A stretch of DNA of 64,000 bases from Spinacia oleracea (taxonomy: Eukaryota > Streptophyta > Magnoliopsida > Caryophyllales > Amaranthaceae): NCBI RefSeq assembly GCF_020520425.1, contig NC_079491.1:6931143-6995142 (forward strand), read 5' to 3'. How positions within the stretch are numbered: the first letter of the stretch is position 1; the number at the start of each line of letters is the position of its first letter. The notes below the pieces were generated by a model, which saw only the letters and a list, made by a program, of their open reading frames with translations, made no database searches and was not told the origin of the DNA. This document shows, piece after piece, positions 7,959 to 63,353 of the stretch. The translations under genes and the position numbers were made by a program.

Positions 7959-8441
7959 TCAAAATGTGATTGGGAAGCACAATACACAGCTTGATTAAAA
8001 CAGTTTTGTCTAGAGCACCAATTTGTTGAGCCTACATGCGATTGGTCTTCCATTCAGCAGGATTACGCTTGAAACATTGCCTTTTCCTCGACATAGCACA
8101 AACAGGTCAAAACTTCAGCTAATAATTCAGGGGATTGCGTTCATCGCCTTCTCATTCCCCGCCCGCGGCCACCTGCTCCTCGTCCTCTACCTCCCATACC
8201 TCAAAATGTAATTGGGAAGCACAATACACAGCTTGATTAAAACAGTTTTGTCTAGAGCACCAATTTGTTGAGCCTACATGCGATTGGTCTTCCATTCAGC
8301 AGGATTACGCTTGAAACATTGCCTTTTCCTCGACATAGCACAAACAGGTCAAAACTTCAGCTAATAATTCAGGGGATTGCGTTCATCGCCTTCTCATTCC
8401 CCGCCCGCGGCCACCTGCTCCTCGTCCTCTACCTCCCATAG
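7959..8441. repeat. Direct tandem duplication of the CCT7 3' end, 242-bp period
   Basis: About 7959-8199 and 8201-8441 are nearly identical direct copies; matching words such as GGGAAGCACAATACACAGC recur 242 bp apart. Each copy contains the last codons of CCT7, its stop codon and the beginning of the 3' UTR. The transcript runs on the minus strand, so the right copy ends the reading frame and the left copy lies in the 3' UTR or just beyond it. The near identity suggests a recent event. Confidence 0.9.
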
Positions 8442-20364: not shown

Positions 20365-20502
20365 CTCCCTTCGTTTCTTGTTGTTCTTTACGTCAATTCC
20401 ACTTGCATGGACCCGGTCCACGCCATAATTAACGTGGACCAGGGTACTTTCTTAAATTACAGTGATGGATCTGAATGATTTCACGTGACCTAATCTACCT
20501 CC

Positions 20503-20811
20503 TTCCCCTTCTTTCTCTCCCTTCCCACCACACCACCCCTTTCCATTTTCTCTCTCCTCCCTTTCCCCATGGCTTCTGAAGAGGACCACCCTATCTACAA
20601 CAACGACGATTTCGACAATGATGATGATGACAGTGAGCCTCTCGATGGTGGTGTTCATGGCGATGATCTTGCCGTTGATTCTGATTCTTCTTCCGGCGAA
20701 GATTCTACCATCGCCAGAGATTCCAGCGTTGTTATTGTTGCATCCCGGCATCCTCTGCTACTATCTCCGTTGTTGTTCCACCACCAACGCCGAACTCTTC
20801 GAGTGTTGTGA
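20503..20811 (+). pseudogene. Possible captured host gene start inside the MULE (Pack-MULE-like)
   Basis: A C/T-rich leader typical of plant 5' UTRs leads to an ATG at 20569 in good context and an 80-codon frame beginning MASEEDHPIYNNDDFDNDDD, very acidic with Asp and Ser runs. The composition differs sharply from the AT-rich array that follows. A second frame over 20618-20947 overlaps it. I do not recognise the parent; acidic N-termini of this kind occur for example in GeBP-type proteins, but this is only a resemblance. It is likely a transduplicated first exon, not a working gene. Confidence 0.45.
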
Positions 20812-21129
20812 CAATCGCACCGCCGGATCCAAAACGAGTAATCTTGAAAGGCGGAAAGGCAATGTGGTTGCGGCTAATCTGTACATCATCCTCGTGTTAT
20901 TTATTATTGTAAGAAGCATATGCAGCTGTCGTAGAAAGATCAAGTAGATGGTTCTGAAAGAAGAACATCAAGATCTAGCTTTTGAAAGATGATTTAGCTC
21001 TCCTAAAGTCCCACATAAGCCTTCTTATTTACCTTATTACGCATAAAAATACTTGATACTCACACCTATTAGCAACTTAGAATCACCTTTCTTTTGGGTA
21101 GAAATTTGTATGGGTTCTAAGTCTATATA

Positions 21130-24100
21130 TATGATGGTAAGATACTCGTAGATTTGCATATATAGTTATTGTTATGATCATATAGTTACTATCATAATAG
21201 CATAGTCACTCTTATTACTAATAACACAGAGTACAAAAAAAAACATAAAAAAAACATAATGAAAATATATTAACTATTAAAACATATTGTTACCATTATA
21301 CATGATATAGTATCTCTTGTTGTTCAAGTCATATAGTAACTTCCGTCATAATATAGTAAATTTTATTACTAATAATGTAGAGTAGAAAAAAGAACATATA
21401 AGAACCTAATACTACACATAGTAACTATTTCAAACATATAGTTACTATTATACATGATATAGTTACTATTACTATTATTCATGGTTATATAGTCACAGAG
21501 TTGCAGACATAGTTAGTGTTATAATCATTTAGTTACTGTCTTCGTTATATTGTTACTCTTATTACTAATAATATAGAGTAGAAAAAATAACAAACAAATG
21601 AAGAATATTACGCATAGTAACTATTTCAAACATATAGTTGCTATTATGCATGATATAGTCACTATTAATAACTCTTTTTATTCTATAGTTACTATTATAA
21701 TCATATAATTAATGTTATCAAAATTAAAAGAGTAACTATTTCAAAAATAAGATTAATTATATATTCATTCTTGTTGACAAAAAGAGTAAATTATAGAAAC
21801 TATATGTTCTGTAAAGTAATTATATCTTCATAATAGTAACTATATAAAAATATATAGTCATTTCGATAAAAATAACTATTATATCCAAAGAGTAACTATA
21901 TGTTCAGTAAAGTAACTATATCCTCATAATAGTAACTATGAATAAATAATAATAAAGTCATTTCAATAAGAATAACTATTCTTTCCAAAGAGTAACTACA
22001 TCATATAGAAAAGTATTTTAACTGTAGAACAATTACTACGAATTATATTTTAAAATAAACAATATAATATAAAAAATTAGAAACTATATGTTATGTGAAG
22101 TAACTATATCTTCATAATAGTAACTATGAAAAAATATAGTCATTTCGATAAGAATAACTATTTTATCCAAAGAGTAACTATATGTTCTGTAAAGTAACTA
22201 TATCTTCATAATAGTAACTATGAAAAAATAATAATATAGCCATTTCGATAAGAATAACTATTTTATATAAAGAGTAACTAAATCATATAGAAAAGTAATT
22301 TTAACTGTAGAACAATTACTATAAAGTATATTTTAAAATAAACAATATAATATAGATGCTTTAGAGGTCATATAGTAACTTTTTCGATTATAGTTACTAT
22401 TATTTCATATAATTACTGAAATAAAAACAGAGTGACTATATCAAAAGTAAGAGTAATTATAACTCTTGAACAATAATTAAGAAAACATTAACTACATGAT
22501 TAGTTGTTTTGAACTACGACAACCTAATTATTTACATCTATTCAATAAGACATATTAAACTCAAATGTTTTTGAACTAAAAAGTACTAATCGCCACATCC
22601 ACGTCCCTTGTTTACACACACACGTCCTCTCCTTCGACGCCCGCGTCCTCTCTTTTCTCTACCACGTCCTTGGTTTTCATTGTGGTCAAATTTTTCTTCT
22701 TCTTCTCCTGCTTTTGTTTTCCTTGCAGAAGTTATTCTTTGCACGACTTCAATTATGGATGCATCATCTTTGTATTTCTGAATCAATAGCATATAAACTA
22801 AGTTAATAATTTAACATTTAAATATGAATAAGTAACATAGTAACTATTTTAAACATATAGTTTATATTATACATCATATAGTAACTCTTACATTTAATGA
22901 TGGTAAGATACTCGCAAAACTGCAGATATAGTCATGTTTATAGTCATATAGTTACTGTCATAATAACATAGTCACTCTTATTATTAATAACACAAAGAAC
23001 AACAAATTATGAATGTAAAAATAACATAATGATAACAAATCATGACAAAATAAGCATAGTACATATTTCAAATATATAGTAACTATATAAACCATATAGT
23101 AACTATATAAACGTATAGTGACTATTATTATAATATAGTAACTATTGTAAACATATAGTAACTATTATAATCATATAGTCACTATCTAAGAAGCGGATAA
23201 AAACATACTCTAAATAACATAGTACATAATGTAATCGTATAGTAACTATTATTTATCAAAAAGTCACTATAAACTGTTCATAACATAATAACTATCTTAA
23301 ACACATAGTTACTGTTTTAAACTTATAATAACTTTCTAAAAAATAAAGTAACTATTTTTAACACAGATATAGTTACTGTTTTAAAGTTATAGTAACTTTT
23401 AAAAAAATATAGTTACTCTAAAAACTAATACTAACATAAATATAACGAGGATTCCAATGACTATTAAAAACACTAAATTAAAGGTGACTATATCATTTAT
23501 ATACTAACTATGTGAAACACTAACCCTAATTTCAACAAAACAACAAACATCTCAAATCACTCAACAAAATAATAACTATTGTACACATATAGTAACTATT
23601 GAACACATATAGTAACCATTAAAATAATATAGTAACTATTGTACACATATAGTAACCATTAAAATTACATCGTACCTCTTTAAACCATATAGTTACTGTA
23701 TTACTCATATAGTTACTATTTAAAATCGTGAAATCACTGATCGAATTCGCGAAGTGAAAACGATATTTCGGTAAAACACAAACATTAATTTTTCAAAACA
23801 ACAAATATTTTCAATTTTAAATAAAAATAGACTTAATTTTTTTTTAAAAACAACAAACCGAGATGTGATCTCTAAAAATTCTTGCGAAGATTTGTAGGCG
23901 AGCGCAAATTCTTCGATTCGATTTCGGCAACGACGAACCTCCTTCTTGATCTACTACTTCCTCCAATTTTTCCTCATCTAATAGATCCAGTTGTAAAAAT
24001 TATAAGATAATTACGAATAAAATCGAACAAAACCTAGAAATTTGGGCTAAATTTTGAAAAGCATAGAGAGAAAATGAAGAGAGAGAAAATGAAAGAGAAT

Positions 24101-24250
24101 GAACAGAATGTAGATCTGAAATTTTGAAAAATAAAAAAGTTTAAAACGTATATAAAGTGGGCTAGCCACAAATCGCATTGAAACTTTACAAAACACATAG
24201 TAACTCTTTAAAACACATAGTTACTGTAATACACATATAGTTACTATTTA
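21130..24250. repeat. Dense array of ATAGTAACTAT / ATAGTTACTAT motifs
   Basis: For about 3 kb the motif AGTAAC or its complement GTTACT recurs in both orientations, commonly as CATATAGTTACTAT or CATATAGTAACTAT, often only 10-40 bp apart. Spacers are AT-rich and variable, so it is not a simple satellite. At about 21795-22352 there is also a direct duplication with a period of roughly 286 bp. The array lies wholly inside the MULE-like element. Confidence 0.85.
22586..22792 (-). other. Basic open frame inside the MULE-like element
   Basis: A 68-codon frame ending in a strongly basic Arg/Gly tail (GREKRGRGRRRRGR). It stands out from the surrounding AT-rich array by its higher GC content. It may be the end of a captured or transposase-linked exon, but nothing recognisable supports a function. 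Confidence 0.25.
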
Positions 24251-24730
24251 AAATCACAAAATAATTGTCACGTGACATTTACATATGTTACCCATACAAA
24301 TTATTCCGTTGCCGTGGTCCATACTAAGTTAGCATGGACCAGGTTTATATTAGTGTAAATATCTTTACGTTGTCCTTTTTGGGTGTTTCAAAATGTTATT
24401 TACATTTTCTTTTATATTAACACAAAATACTTTAATATCTATCGGAATTTGTGTCCAATGATTATTTTAACTAATTAAATTCATTGGGTCATTTAATCTC
24501 TCATACTTTTTTTTATTGGGACATTAAAATTTTCTCATTTTTCCAACATCATAATTTTGATAAGAGTGAAAACATTATAAATAAATGTAATTTTCCTTGT
24601 TTAAATAAAAAATAGAGGAATCTCAATGCATATTAATTAGTCGTTATTAAACGTGCAAAAGACCAACCGTAAAGAACAAAAAGAAACGGAGAAAGTAAGA
24701 TTTTAACTCGGCCAAGACTATGTGTTTGAC

Positions 24731-26086
24731 CAGCGCGTCTCCCGTGAGACCAGTCACACCATAAACTTGATGGTGTGACGAGCGAGAAACCAATAGCGTT
24801 AAATTATTGGTTTCTTCTTCGTATCTTTCTTCTTATTCTTCTTCAATGGTTGGCTCTCCTGAACATTATTAATGTTGTTGTTGTCGAAGTTGTCACCATG
24901 TGTAGCAGCAATGTGTTCATCAACAACGGAAGCTTCCATATGCATGATTTCATTTTGGTGATAAGGGTTGCTAATTAAACTAGGAACTCGATCTACTTCC
25001 ATTTCCTGCAGGCATCGAGTATGTACGTACATAAGTAAAAATTAAGAGACAAGGGATATTATACTAACCTTGACATGGATGATGAAGGAACGTATGAGTT
25101 GTTTGATGACAGGGATGATGAAGGAACCCCTAAAACTACAAAAGTAACATATCTAAACAATAAAAGTAACAAGTCTAAACTATAGAAAAAATACCTTGAC
25201 TAAAACTATAAAACTACTTTCCCTAAAACTATAAAAGTAACGGGCTGGAAATTTAAAAGTATCTCCCATAAAACTATGAAAGTAATGCCTAAACTATAAA
25301 AAAACACAAGTCTAAATTATAGAAGTACCTTGACTAAACTTTAAAGGTAACAAGCCTAAACTATAAAAGTAACAAGCCTAAAAATATTAAAATTAAGAGG
25401 CCTAAACTATAAAAGTACTCCCTCTAAAACTATAAAAGTAACATGCTTAAACTATAAAAGTACTCCCTCTATAACTATAAAGTACTCCGTAACGTTTAAA
25501 CTATAAGCATACTTCCCCTAAAAAAAAAAAAAAAGTAACAGATTTAAACTATAGAAGTAACATACCTAAACTAAAAAAGTATCTCCTCTAAAATTATATA
25601 TATAAAAAAGTAACATGTTTAAACTATAGAAGTAACATACCTAAACTAAAAATGTACCTCCCCTAAAACTATTCCGTATAAAAAAAAATAACATGTCAAA
25701 ACTATAGAAGTAACATACATAAACTAAAAAAATACCTCATCTAAAATTATAAAAAAAAGTAACATGTCTAAACTATAGAAGTAATACGTAAACTAAAAAG
25801 GTACATCCCCTAAAACTAATCCGTATAAAAAAAGTAACATGTCTAAACTATAGAAGTAACATACATAAACTAAAAAGGTACCTCCCCTAAAACTACTCCG
25901 TATATAAAAAAAAAGTAACATGTCTAAACTATAGAAGTAACATACCTAAACTAAAAAAAGTACCTCCTCTAAAATTATAAAAAAAAGTAATATGTCTAAA
26001 CTATAGAAATAACATACCTAAATTCACAAGTGTGAACTGGTCTCATCATCAGTTGATGGTGAGGACAGTCTCATATAAGAATTTGG
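24731..26086. mobile_element. Second MULE-like element with hairpin ends
   Basis: The left end contains GAGACCAGTCACACCAT followed by AACTTGATGGTGTGACGAG; the right end, read in reverse complement, contains TGAGACTGTCCTCACCATC followed by AACTGATGATGAGACCAG. The two ends are therefore imperfect inverted repeats, and each folds on itself. The target duplication could not be fixed. The interior holds a small frame (24799-25032, minus, Lys-rich end) and a repeat array. It begins only about 35 bp after the MITE at 24695. Confidence 0.6.
25125..26030. repeat. Array of AAACTATAGAAGTAACAT-type repeats
   Basis: About 900 bp of imperfect repeats alternating between a CTAAACTATAGAAGTAACAT block and a CTAAACTAAAAAAGTACCTCC block, with a combined unit of roughly 70-80 bp on the right side and shorter units on the left. 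The shared core AGTAAC is the same as in the array at 21130-24250, although the flanking words differ. Confidence 0.8.
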
Positions 26087-26397: not shown

Positions 26398-29300
26398 ATG
26401 TTGCGTCAAAGCTGTAAGAAGATCCTAGCGCACGCCCAATTGCAACCCCAGTTGCGCGCGACACCTTTGGTGCTGGCGCGCCACTACCATGAGAGGGTGG
26501 TGGATCACTACAACAACCCTAGAAATGTTGGGTCCTTCGATAATAACGACCCAGATGTGGGGACGGGTCTTGTGGGTGCTCCTGCTTGTGGGGATGTTAT
26601 GAAGCTTCAAATTAGGGTTGATGATAAAACTGGCTAGATTGTTGATGCCCCTTTTAAGACTTTTGGTTGCGGTTCTGCTATCGCTTCTTCTTCTGTTGGT
26701 ATGTTTTTTTTATTTTTTTATTTTTATTTTTTTATTCTTCTTTTTTGAATTTGATAATTTGGGTGTTAATTTTTCGATTTTAACTGGCCTGGGTTTGAAT
26801 TTCTTGGGACTTTTGTTTAATTTGCTTGATCAATTCGCGTGCTTAGTTTTTGGTGAAGCTTTATATTCGATTGTTTATGTTCTTGTAACTGCATTAATTT
26901 GATTTCTGCTAGTTATTGGAAAAATTAATTGTAATGAAGTAGCATATTTGAGATTCAACTAGACTTATGGTTGCTTCTTTCATAATTATCTTGGGAGTTA
27001 TATGTAATGGATTGATGTCATTTTCAATTGAGACTCGGCACCTAATTGAAGTTCATAGCCGAGCCTGCAGCTGAATGTGTGAGGTGCTAGGGTTTTTTAA
27101 ATGGAGAAGACAAGTAGAATTTAACCTTTGAAGTCCAAGTAACCCACAGAGGTTAAGATGATCGGTTTCTGTTGGGTGAATTCGTTAGCAGTGTTTGATT
27201 TTCTATCAAGACACATCTGTTTTTTGGGTGATGAATTTTATTTGGTTTAGGTCTTTAGGGGAAACTCGATTCGATAATTGGCCCATCTCTGAATAGCAAA
27301 GCTTTGCATTCTAGACTTCAAAGTCGACAACCTATTATCGCACCTTCTTAAGCTATGTACTTGGGTAAAGATTTTACTTGCAATTCTATGAGAAAAAAGT
27401 TTGATGATGGAGAGTATTCATGCATGAATACTTAGATCATAAATTCATAATTGCAGGTTATAAGATGTTTGGATATTGCAACCTTTTGTTCTTCGTTTGT
27501 TAATGATTACTATGAAACATAGGGTTTGACTAGGCTCTTTTTATCCGTTGGATCTCTGTATCATATTCATTGAGCCAGTTGCTTTCGTTGCCAAGCACAT
27601 AACACAATTTGCTTTGATGCCACTCCCAGATTCTAATGTGGCTTTAAAATTTTAAAGTAATTCTAAGCAGCCTATATAGACCTAGAAGTTTGTCACTCGG
27701 GTTGTTGTTTGTAGCTATGTTGGCTTGTCATTGAAAAAGGGATACATAGCTGTATTAATGGAAGCCTGTGGCGTAATCATTGCTCCTTGCTTGGCATCTC
27801 AGCTAACAGAGGCACTACCACACTATTTTATTGTGTTAGGTCCAGTATCTTCTGGTCATATATGTTACGAGTTGTCAGGGGCAATACATTGAATTTTTTC
27901 AGAAGATTCACTCTCCTGTAGATCAGGCTCTGGTGTGTTGAACTTCACGTGGATAGAAAAGCAAGAAAGTCTTTGTAATAAACTCACTGCTTAGCACAGA
28001 AAACAATAGAGAATGACAGGAATATTTTAGGGAAAATAGAGGAATGGATTGATTGATTTGCTCAAAAAGGACAGCTTACAAAATAAAGGGGTGACTTGAG
28101 GCCACTACTCTCAATAGACAGCTTTAGGCTGTTACTCTCCTAAGGAATAATCACTCACAAAATGCCTGCATAATCTGATTACCCCCTTTCCCTTTTATTT
28201 ACATCCCGTTGGTATTTCTTGTCCTATTCCTCTTTATTCCCTTGCTGACCTGGCAGCACTGCTTGTTTCTCAGAAGCTTCCTGGTGCACCTTCCTATTTT
28301 GTCTTCTTCTGGAATACGTAAACTGCAGAGTTGGCCTGGCCTTCATCTGATTTGGGTTTGTTGCAGTCTTTTAAAGGTCATAATTGATCTTATTGAGAGC
28401 ATTTCTTCTTCTAATGTTGTGTTATCTTGATGATGCTGGTTCTTGTAATTATTAAAGTTAATCTGTGTGCAGAAGTTGTCGTCTATTAGCCTATCTGCTA
28501 TATTGAATGCTGTTGTTTATTTGGAGCTCTATAAATGCATCTGTGTGAAAATTCTTACTGGAATATCGTTTTGTTTCTTTTTCTTCAGCTACTGAGTGGG
28601 TCAAAGGGAGACAAATGGAGGATGTGGTGACAATAAAAAACACGTAAGTTGCTAAACTCCTGGTCTGATATAGTTTTTTCAATTCTCACTTAAGTAATTT
28701 TTATCATGATCGTATGACGACTTATCTTATCTAGAGAATTACGGAGTATTTTCTTATCAAGTTATTGTATTCAGCGAGGCGAAACCCTTCAGTTTAAGTG
28801 TGGCTTTGGGATGAGAGTGGTATATCTGGACCCGGCTGTTTTTTTTCTTCAAATTCTTCTATCACCATATCCAACCAGTACCACAAATCCCTTGTTTATG
28901 TGTTATAACCATTATGACTGTCCTAAATGTTATGGATTAGGTCCTTTGAAGGTTATCGATGGTGAAAGTATAAAAGCATCCATGATTAAGAATTTTCAAT
29001 TTTGGCTAAAGATGTGGCTAACCAAATGTTTCATTAAATCACTTATTCGTTTCCGTCTGAAGTAGTTAGCTAATAGACCACGTTACAATTTAAATGCATG
29101 ATCGGAAAATCCTCTGGCAAGTCCTGTTTACATAGGTGTGTGGTGGTGATATCGCTGTGATGGTATATCACGTAAATTATTGTTTTGTGGTGTTGTAACA
29201 CTCAATCTTGTGGCATATGTATGCTGTATTTCTGCGGAGTCATACCACAGAAGATATTTGATGCTTTTATTTTTATCACATTAACATCTACGTAACTTTG

Positions 29301-62843: not shown

Positions 62844-63133
62844 ACATCATAGTACTTACATGCATGTACGTTGGTGATGATAATGGATTTATTTAATTGA
62901 TCAGGCATTAGAAGATATTGTATCATAACACATTATGTCAGTATGCAAACAAATGAGTGATCTCTACCGTCTTACGCATAAATCTATACAAATGTATAAT
63001 TAGAGACATTTAAATAATACCGATGAGGTTTGAGGTTAGCGAGGCGGCTACCGGTTATGTATAGCAAAAATATAACACTCACTAAATGACAAAATAAAAA
63101 AGGGTGGTAGGAGGAAAAGACAAAAAAGATAAA

Positions 63134-63353
63134 AGTACATTTCAATACCATTTCAGTACCATTTTGTTAAAAAAAGTAACATTTTAATACCATTTTTCAG
63201 TACCATTTTGTTTAAAAAAGTATCATTTCGTTTAAAAAAATATCATTTCGTTAAAAAGAGTATCATTTCTTCAAAACAAAGAGTACAATTTCATTATATC
63301 ATTTCTTTTTAAAAAATACTATTTCTTTTTTAAAAAAAATACCATTGTTCCAT
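63134..63353. repeat. Minisatellite of TACCATTTCGTTTAAAAAAG-type units
   Basis: About ten imperfect units of roughly 20-24 bp, each holding TA(C/T)CATTT and an A-run. Confidence 0.8.

Follow-up and report, generated by a model that had tools for sequence, protein, structure and literature searches.

The question raised by this locus is why a short stretch of spinach DNA should carry dozens of copies of one six-base word, and what might bind them. The window, by which we mean the whole 64,000-nucleotide stretch that was analyzed (C5:6931143-6995142, in a genome searched over 894,210,420 bases), holds 86 copies of AGTAAC in total, and 46 of them lie within 3.1 kb, at positions 21130 to 24250; the next block is in a neighboring element at 25.1 to 26.0 kb. 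A sequence-only reading had described AGTAAC and its complement GTTACT as recurring over about 3 kb in both orientations, and this was confirmed at a density far above what composition would give, since 500 dinucleotide-preserving shuffles yielded 3.7 ± 1.9 copies with a maximum of 10. The word AGTAACTAT occurred 34 times in the same range, against a mean of 0.21 in the same number of such shuffles. Genome-wide, ATAGTTACTAT (word 1) was found 10,572 times (5,174 on the plus strand and 5,398 on the minus strand), compared with 702 times for the reversed word (349 and 353). Within the array, AGTAAC favors the plus strand by about 2:1 (31 copies against 15).

The same reading had called the spacers variable and the array unlike a satellite. 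The spacing proved not to be free, with 20 bp as the commonest step (10 times between plus-strand sites and 3 times between minus-strand sites), and TRF detected tandem periods of about 20, 40, 60, and 100 bp. Because of these steps and tandem arrays, the distinction from a satellite stands only in part: it is upheld by the mixed orientation and the several separate blocks with a coding remnant in between, which are not the uniform head-to-tail monomers of satellite DNA. The interval from about 22.40 to 22.83 kb is free of AGTAAC, and the coding remnant is located there. In appearance, the whole is that of a field of protein-binding sites, as had been proposed.

The array does lie within a MULE-like element, whose ends (20394 and 24361) are set wider than the range first reported. 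A 9-bp target-site duplication, the approximate size made by MULEs, was seen in 7 of the 7 copies that could be read at both ends, the window copy included (5 exact and 2 with one mismatch, by eye); nine copies were tried from printed flanks, and L029/L058 and L073 were not readable. Patterns made from the element ends (up to 2 mismatches) matched 295 places in the genome at the 5' end and 342 at the 3' end, while the reversed controls matched none. The 3' segment, from position 23860 to the end, was 94 to 100% alike in all 40 copies scored, out of 3,761 candidates. No long terminal inverted repeats were recognized by eye in the window element, and a GGTCCA..TGGACC hairpin is common to both of its ends. 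Two candidates for an autonomous copy, picked by a long end-to-end distance, were rejected: the one at C3:41.27 Mb (13.7 kb) appeared by eye to be a copy interrupted by a nested insertion that has long repeats on either side, and at C3:25.56 Mb a FAR1-type MULE gene lies outside the array element, at a distance of about 6.6 kb. The window element is itself inserted in an older repeat with matching inverted-repeat ends (TACTCCCTTCGTTTC..), from about 20365 to about 24695, which we take to be Stowaway-like. The positions of the features are collected in Table 1.

Table 1. Features of the array-bearing element, in window coordinates
Feature	Position	Strand	Evidence
Left target-site duplication TCTTTACGT	20385..20393	.	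Flank reading
Non-autonomous MULE-like element, 3,968 bp	20394..24361	.	Ends set by matches to genome copies
5' subterminal hairpin GGTCCACG..CGTGGACC	20411..20445	.	DNA fold z -4.8; similar in other copies (by eye)
Broken 5' part captured from a host GeBP-like gene	20488..20837	+	88% DNA match to L014; 81% over 58 aa
Site array, left block (AGTAAC/GTTACT, 20 bp commonest step)	21130..22460	.	TRF, motif counts, step counts
Last-exon remnant of a VANC-like transposon gene	22586..22792	-	50% over 38 aa to L074 exon 9, E 7e-9; tblastn E 1e-6
Site array, right block; probably part of an intron in a VANC-like gene	22830..23725	.	Match to L073 (presumed intron), motif positions
Three more sites close to the 3' end	24196..24250	.	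Motif positions
3' subterminal hairpin GGTCCAT..ATGGACC	24312..24343	.	DNA fold z -3.4
Right target-site duplication TCTTTACGT	24362..24370	.	Flank reading

From 5' to 3', the element consists of the broken GeBP-like part, the left site block, the last-exon remnant on the minus strand, the right site block, and the 3' segment. L014, which the first of these parts resembles, contains a 501-aa frame with GeBP-like_DBD (E 9e-33). The longest stop-to-stop frame in the element is 152 aa, and therefore no transposase is encoded in it; together with the captured gene fragment, this is the makeup of a Pack-MULE. Positions 23076 to 23725 matched L073:7848-8478, a presumed intron, at 71% (E 1e-93), a score inflated by shared repeats since both are arrays. 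Given the exon 9 remnant and this match, the window element has the look of a derivative formed by deletion, in which most coding exons would have been lost and the intron arrays kept. The sense of the sites agrees as well, with the gene remnant on the minus strand and the majority of AGTAAC copies on the plus strand, the same relation as in the gene-bearing relative L074.

The relatives that carry a gene are L073 and L074. L073 was found by reading a word-1 cluster on C1. A genome search with the protein encoded by the minus-strand frame 5126-5845 of L073 returned 982 candidate matches, of which the best 150 were scored. L074 (C1:17.17 Mb) offers the fullest view of the gene, with nine exons, one of them containing a frame break; the exons were placed by eye, with GT-AG within a few bases of the drawn borders, which are presumptive, and with phases unchecked. 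The start codon is reached about 285 bp inward from the end of a related element. Core motifs (GTTACT/AGTAAC) numbered 66 in 3,309 bases of presumed intron compared with 2 in 3,069 bases of exon. Six of the eight introns contain the motif, as does the sequence downstream of the gene, and there was no site in the 286 bases from the element end to the start codon. The motifs in the introns are mostly in gene sense (58 of 66), and sense sites follow one another most often at a 20-bp step (31 times). A gene of the L074 type is the likely source of the window array. An array found independently of the element ends had been named in the sequence-only reading as evidence against it, and this turned out to be half true: the array also occurs in the introns of L073 and L074, whose ends are related to those of the window element but have diverged.

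Pfam searches gave faint indications of what these genes encode. DUF1985 was the best match both for L074 exon 3 (E 0.0051) and for a frame of L076 (E 0.0012), in each case below the curated cut-off of 35.1 bits. Downstream of the DUF1985-like part, Peptidase_C48/Ulp1 matched L074 exon 7 (E 0.0094) and a later frame of L076 (E 0.0027), both below the cut-off of 20.7 bits. Neither domain was matched in the tested frames of L073 and L075. Searches of PDB sequences gave no match up to E 10 for L074 exon 3 and nothing useful for the L076 frame, with an ABC transporter as the best hit (E 0.043). Genes found by the DUF1985 Pfam model were rejected as the partner of the array, with 0 of the 6 listed lying at listed ATAGTTACTAT clusters (C1 up to 17.2 Mb, by eye; 150 scored of 893). 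Over the same range, also by eye, 4 of the 4 matches to the L073 protein lay at listed ATAGTTACTAT clusters, the query locus included.

Array and gene both differ in a sister family. The sister gene L075 (C1:103.3 Mb; L075:2367-7213), 38% identical over 325 aa, has a similar series of frames separated by arrays; these arrays between the coding frames consist of AGTTAAAGTT (word 2) at 21-bp steps. On the sense strand, GTTAAAGTT at 21-bp steps was counted 32 times in the three long gaps between presumed exons and once in those frames, and no AGTAAC occurs in L075. We compared the first 100 of 131 tandem word-1 pairs and the first 100 of 168 tandem word-2 pairs with the 150 scored matches of the L073 protein. 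Within 6 kb, 69 of the 100 word-1 places had a sister-A hit and none had a sister-B hit, while for word 2 the numbers were 56 with a sister-B hit and none with a sister-A hit; at most 5 and 6 were reached in 1,000 shifted controls. Word place and gene hit agreed in strand in 124 of 125 cases. Seen from the genes, and within the listed ranges, the family's own word pair lay within 6 kb of 17 of the 17 B hits and 35 of the 81 A hits, the other 46 A hits being without a perfect word-1 pair at that distance, and none of 52 A hits and none of 26 B hits had the other family's word pair nearby. At the listed places, neither word was near the 6 C hits or the 9 D hits. As the copies descend from one another, this association counts as two families and not as 200 independent events; the pattern is one of two related families that differ in word as they do in protein.

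The 31 word-1 places with no sister-A hit nearby comprised 23 on C1 to C3 and 8 on C4 and C5. Twelve of the 23 were within 6 kb of a perfect window-family 3' end and are therefore probably non-autonomous copies, and two of the remaining 11 were near a listed 5' end. The 8 places on C4 and C5 fall outside the range listed for 3' ends; one of them was near a listed 5' end. L076 is a more distant relative (40% identity over 358 aa) that has only 7 copies of AGTAAC, no strong array, and a few TATAGTAAC sites; its array is perhaps old or decaying. A 222-bp duplication in L076 contains some of the TATAGTAAC sites.

The sequence-only reading had known of no plant element on record whose internal sites are so dense, a claim that does not hold, as the VANDAL MULEs of Arabidopsis are described with dense arrays of YAGTATTAY or AGTTGTCC/AGTTGTAC in their introns and elsewhere in noncoding sequence (PMC5735166). 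According to the same source, VANC21 binds YAGTATTAY in vitro and in vivo, its localization goes with motif density, and its expression removes methylation along the element; its target motifs are mostly in gene sense and form arrays in the introns of VANC21 and VANB21 and upstream of VANA21, the words of VANC6 (AGTTGTCC/AGTTGTAC) differ from those of VANC21, and the VANC domains are DUF1985 and DUF287 (PMC5735166). VANDALs are characterized as having a 9-bp duplication and terminal inverted repeats that are absent or short and degenerate (PMC6446971), and RNA-directed methylation is reported to target the same parts of the element as the VANC system (PMC10398659).

The spinach elements share much of this anatomy. 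They are MULE-like with a 9-bp duplication (PMC6446971), and they have dense arrays of short words in noncoding parts and in introns (presumed ones in L074), words that are specific to the family, sites that are mostly in gene sense, and possibly a DUF1985-type protein, the last by a weak match (PMC5735166). They differ in the words themselves, which here are ATAGTTACTAT and AGTTAAAGTT and there YAGTATTAY and AGTTGTCC/AGTTGTAC (PMC5735166), in the additional Ulp1-like part of the gene, in that no transposase was found beside the gene, and in being known from sequence alone. The order of a DUF1985-like and then an Ulp1-like part in one transposon gene would match the KIU genes. These are described as VANC genes of eudicot MULEs that include an Ulp1 domain, with the Ulp1 capture reported to be conserved in eudicots and specific motifs to be recognized (PMC13317346); this likeness is drawn from sub-threshold Pfam matches and from the published description. 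A Pack-TYPE element of Arabidopsis Tsu-0, PAC, is regarded as a probable non-autonomous VANDAL with possible VANC6 sites (PMC12312487) and resembles the window element as a probable non-autonomous element that keeps anti-silencing sites. However, PAC is about 1 kb long with two direct repeats (PMC12312487), whereas 46 core sites are packed into 3.1 kb of the window element, to which some 300 ends in the genome are related.

It is this shared anatomy (the array, its placing in introns, the sense of the sites, and the family-specific words) that makes an anti-silencing reading the likeliest, and we consider it probable that the array is a binding-site field for a transposon-encoded, sequence-specific protein of the VANC kind, of the type with DUF1985 and an Ulp1-like part. 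Such a protein would be made by gene-bearing relatives such as L074 and would bind the many copies of ATAGTTACTAT, spaced by 20 bp, within the introns of its own gene and in the sequence flanking it. It would also act in trans by binding non-autonomous derivatives, the window element among them, and dense binding would remove or block DNA methylation, allowing the elements to be expressed and moved. We infer the VANC-like identity of the protein, its binding, its action in trans, and the demethylation by comparison with the Arabidopsis systems.

The sites could instead bind a transposase or an accessory transposition protein, so that the array would serve synapsis or mobility in place of, or besides, anti-silencing. 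En/Spm elements, which belong to the CACTA superfamily, have short TnpA-binding subterminal motifs near their ends. They resemble the present case in having many short sites inside a DNA transposon and a link to demethylation, which is here a proposed one. Both TnpA of Spm and MURA of MuDR (a maize transposase) are reported to be linked to DNA hypomethylation (PMC10398659), so one protein can do both jobs. The sites of the window element, which are in both orientations and are kept by other copies, would also suit such a function. Against it, the sites of L074 are spread through the introns of a gene about 6 kb long instead of lying at the element end, and there are none in the 286 bases before the start codon. 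Moreover, no transposase tracked the array among the matches scored. Pfam found no MULE transposase in 4 frames of L073 and 5 frames of L074. Within 15 kb of 90 sister-A hits there were 1 match to PF10551 (best 150 of 1,960) and 2 to PF03108 (best 150 of 655), with 0.45 expected for each, which is close to chance level, and there was no match to either model within 15 kb of 30 sister-B hits (best 150 each). In L071, about 6.6 kb separates the PF10551 gene from the array element. The suggestion that the mobilizing transposase binds the array thus found no support, and we regard this explanation as unlikely.

Neutral tandem expansion, by slippage and unequal crossing-over in AT-rich introns, would produce arrays that bind nothing in particular, and the multiples of 20 bp found by TRF are what it would leave behind. 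The motif cores are also only weakly conserved among copies: over the whole 1.5 kb compared, they deviated in 8.4% versus 8.0% elsewhere (101 of 218 shifts were as low), and in the array part they deviated in 7.6% versus 11.1% elsewhere (36 of 895 shifts were as low), where 2 of 3 control words were better kept than the motif. With these values and the better-kept controls, selection on the motifs among copies was rejected as weak or absent. However, expansion of this kind does not account well for a word that occupies most L074 introns and the downstream sequence and hardly occurs in the exons, for its presence on both strands and in separated blocks in the window, or for two sister families that have different words at nearly the same step (20 and 21 bp). 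We therefore hold it, too, to be improbable. That the array is an enhancer or silencer field for a host factor (MYB/MADS or other) is very unlikely, as a fixed host factor would not be expected to go with a word that differs between transposon protein families. In its favor, 265 bp separate the start of the element from the first ATG of a Cpn60/TCP1 frame on the opposite strand, so an effect on a host promoter is conceivable.

Returning to the VANC-like site field, we propose tentatively, and with more doubt than confidence, that at least two and perhaps three orthogonal VANC-like systems exist side by side, each pairing a protein family with a word of its own that recurs about every two helical turns (20, 21, and perhaps 22 bp), and that site-only derivatives would act as free-riding demethylation islands near genes or as decoys that titrate the protein. 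VANC-type anti-silencing in general is already published; what seems new here are the words, the contrast between two families, and the number of derivatives. No report of a VANC-type system in spinach came up in full-text searches, few of which named spinach, so this result weighs little. If the reading is correct, the arms race over VANC-type anti-silencing would extend to a crop of the Caryophyllales, the two families with nonoverlapping words would provide test pairs for changes in DNA specificity and for targeted demethylation tools, and thousands of otherwise odd repeats in the genome would be explained.

Several other features were observed in the window. A second element, at 24705-26060 beside the first, is bounded by ends that fold into hairpins (DNA fold z -3.3 and -2.2) and contains its own array at 25133-26022, of the form AAGTAACAT..TAAACTATAG with a 22-bp step. 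A 29-base pattern of this array was found at 2,648 places in the genome and its reversed control at none. No gene partner was seen for it: the first 100 of the 2,648 places, which all lie on C1, showed by eye no general proximity to matches of DUF1985 or the L073 protein, and one DUF1985 match was about 5 kb from this type of array at C1:70.89 Mb. At 26398-26637 there is the start of a NifU_N (IscU-like) gene whose frame runs into a TAG, and the IscU-like reading presumably continues past it; this is possibly a pseudogene or a sequence difference. A short tandem array of AAAAGTAACATTTCAATACC.. and AGTATCATTTCGTT.. units occupies 63131-63281, and at 7959-8440 a 242-bp unit is repeated twice with 99% identity.
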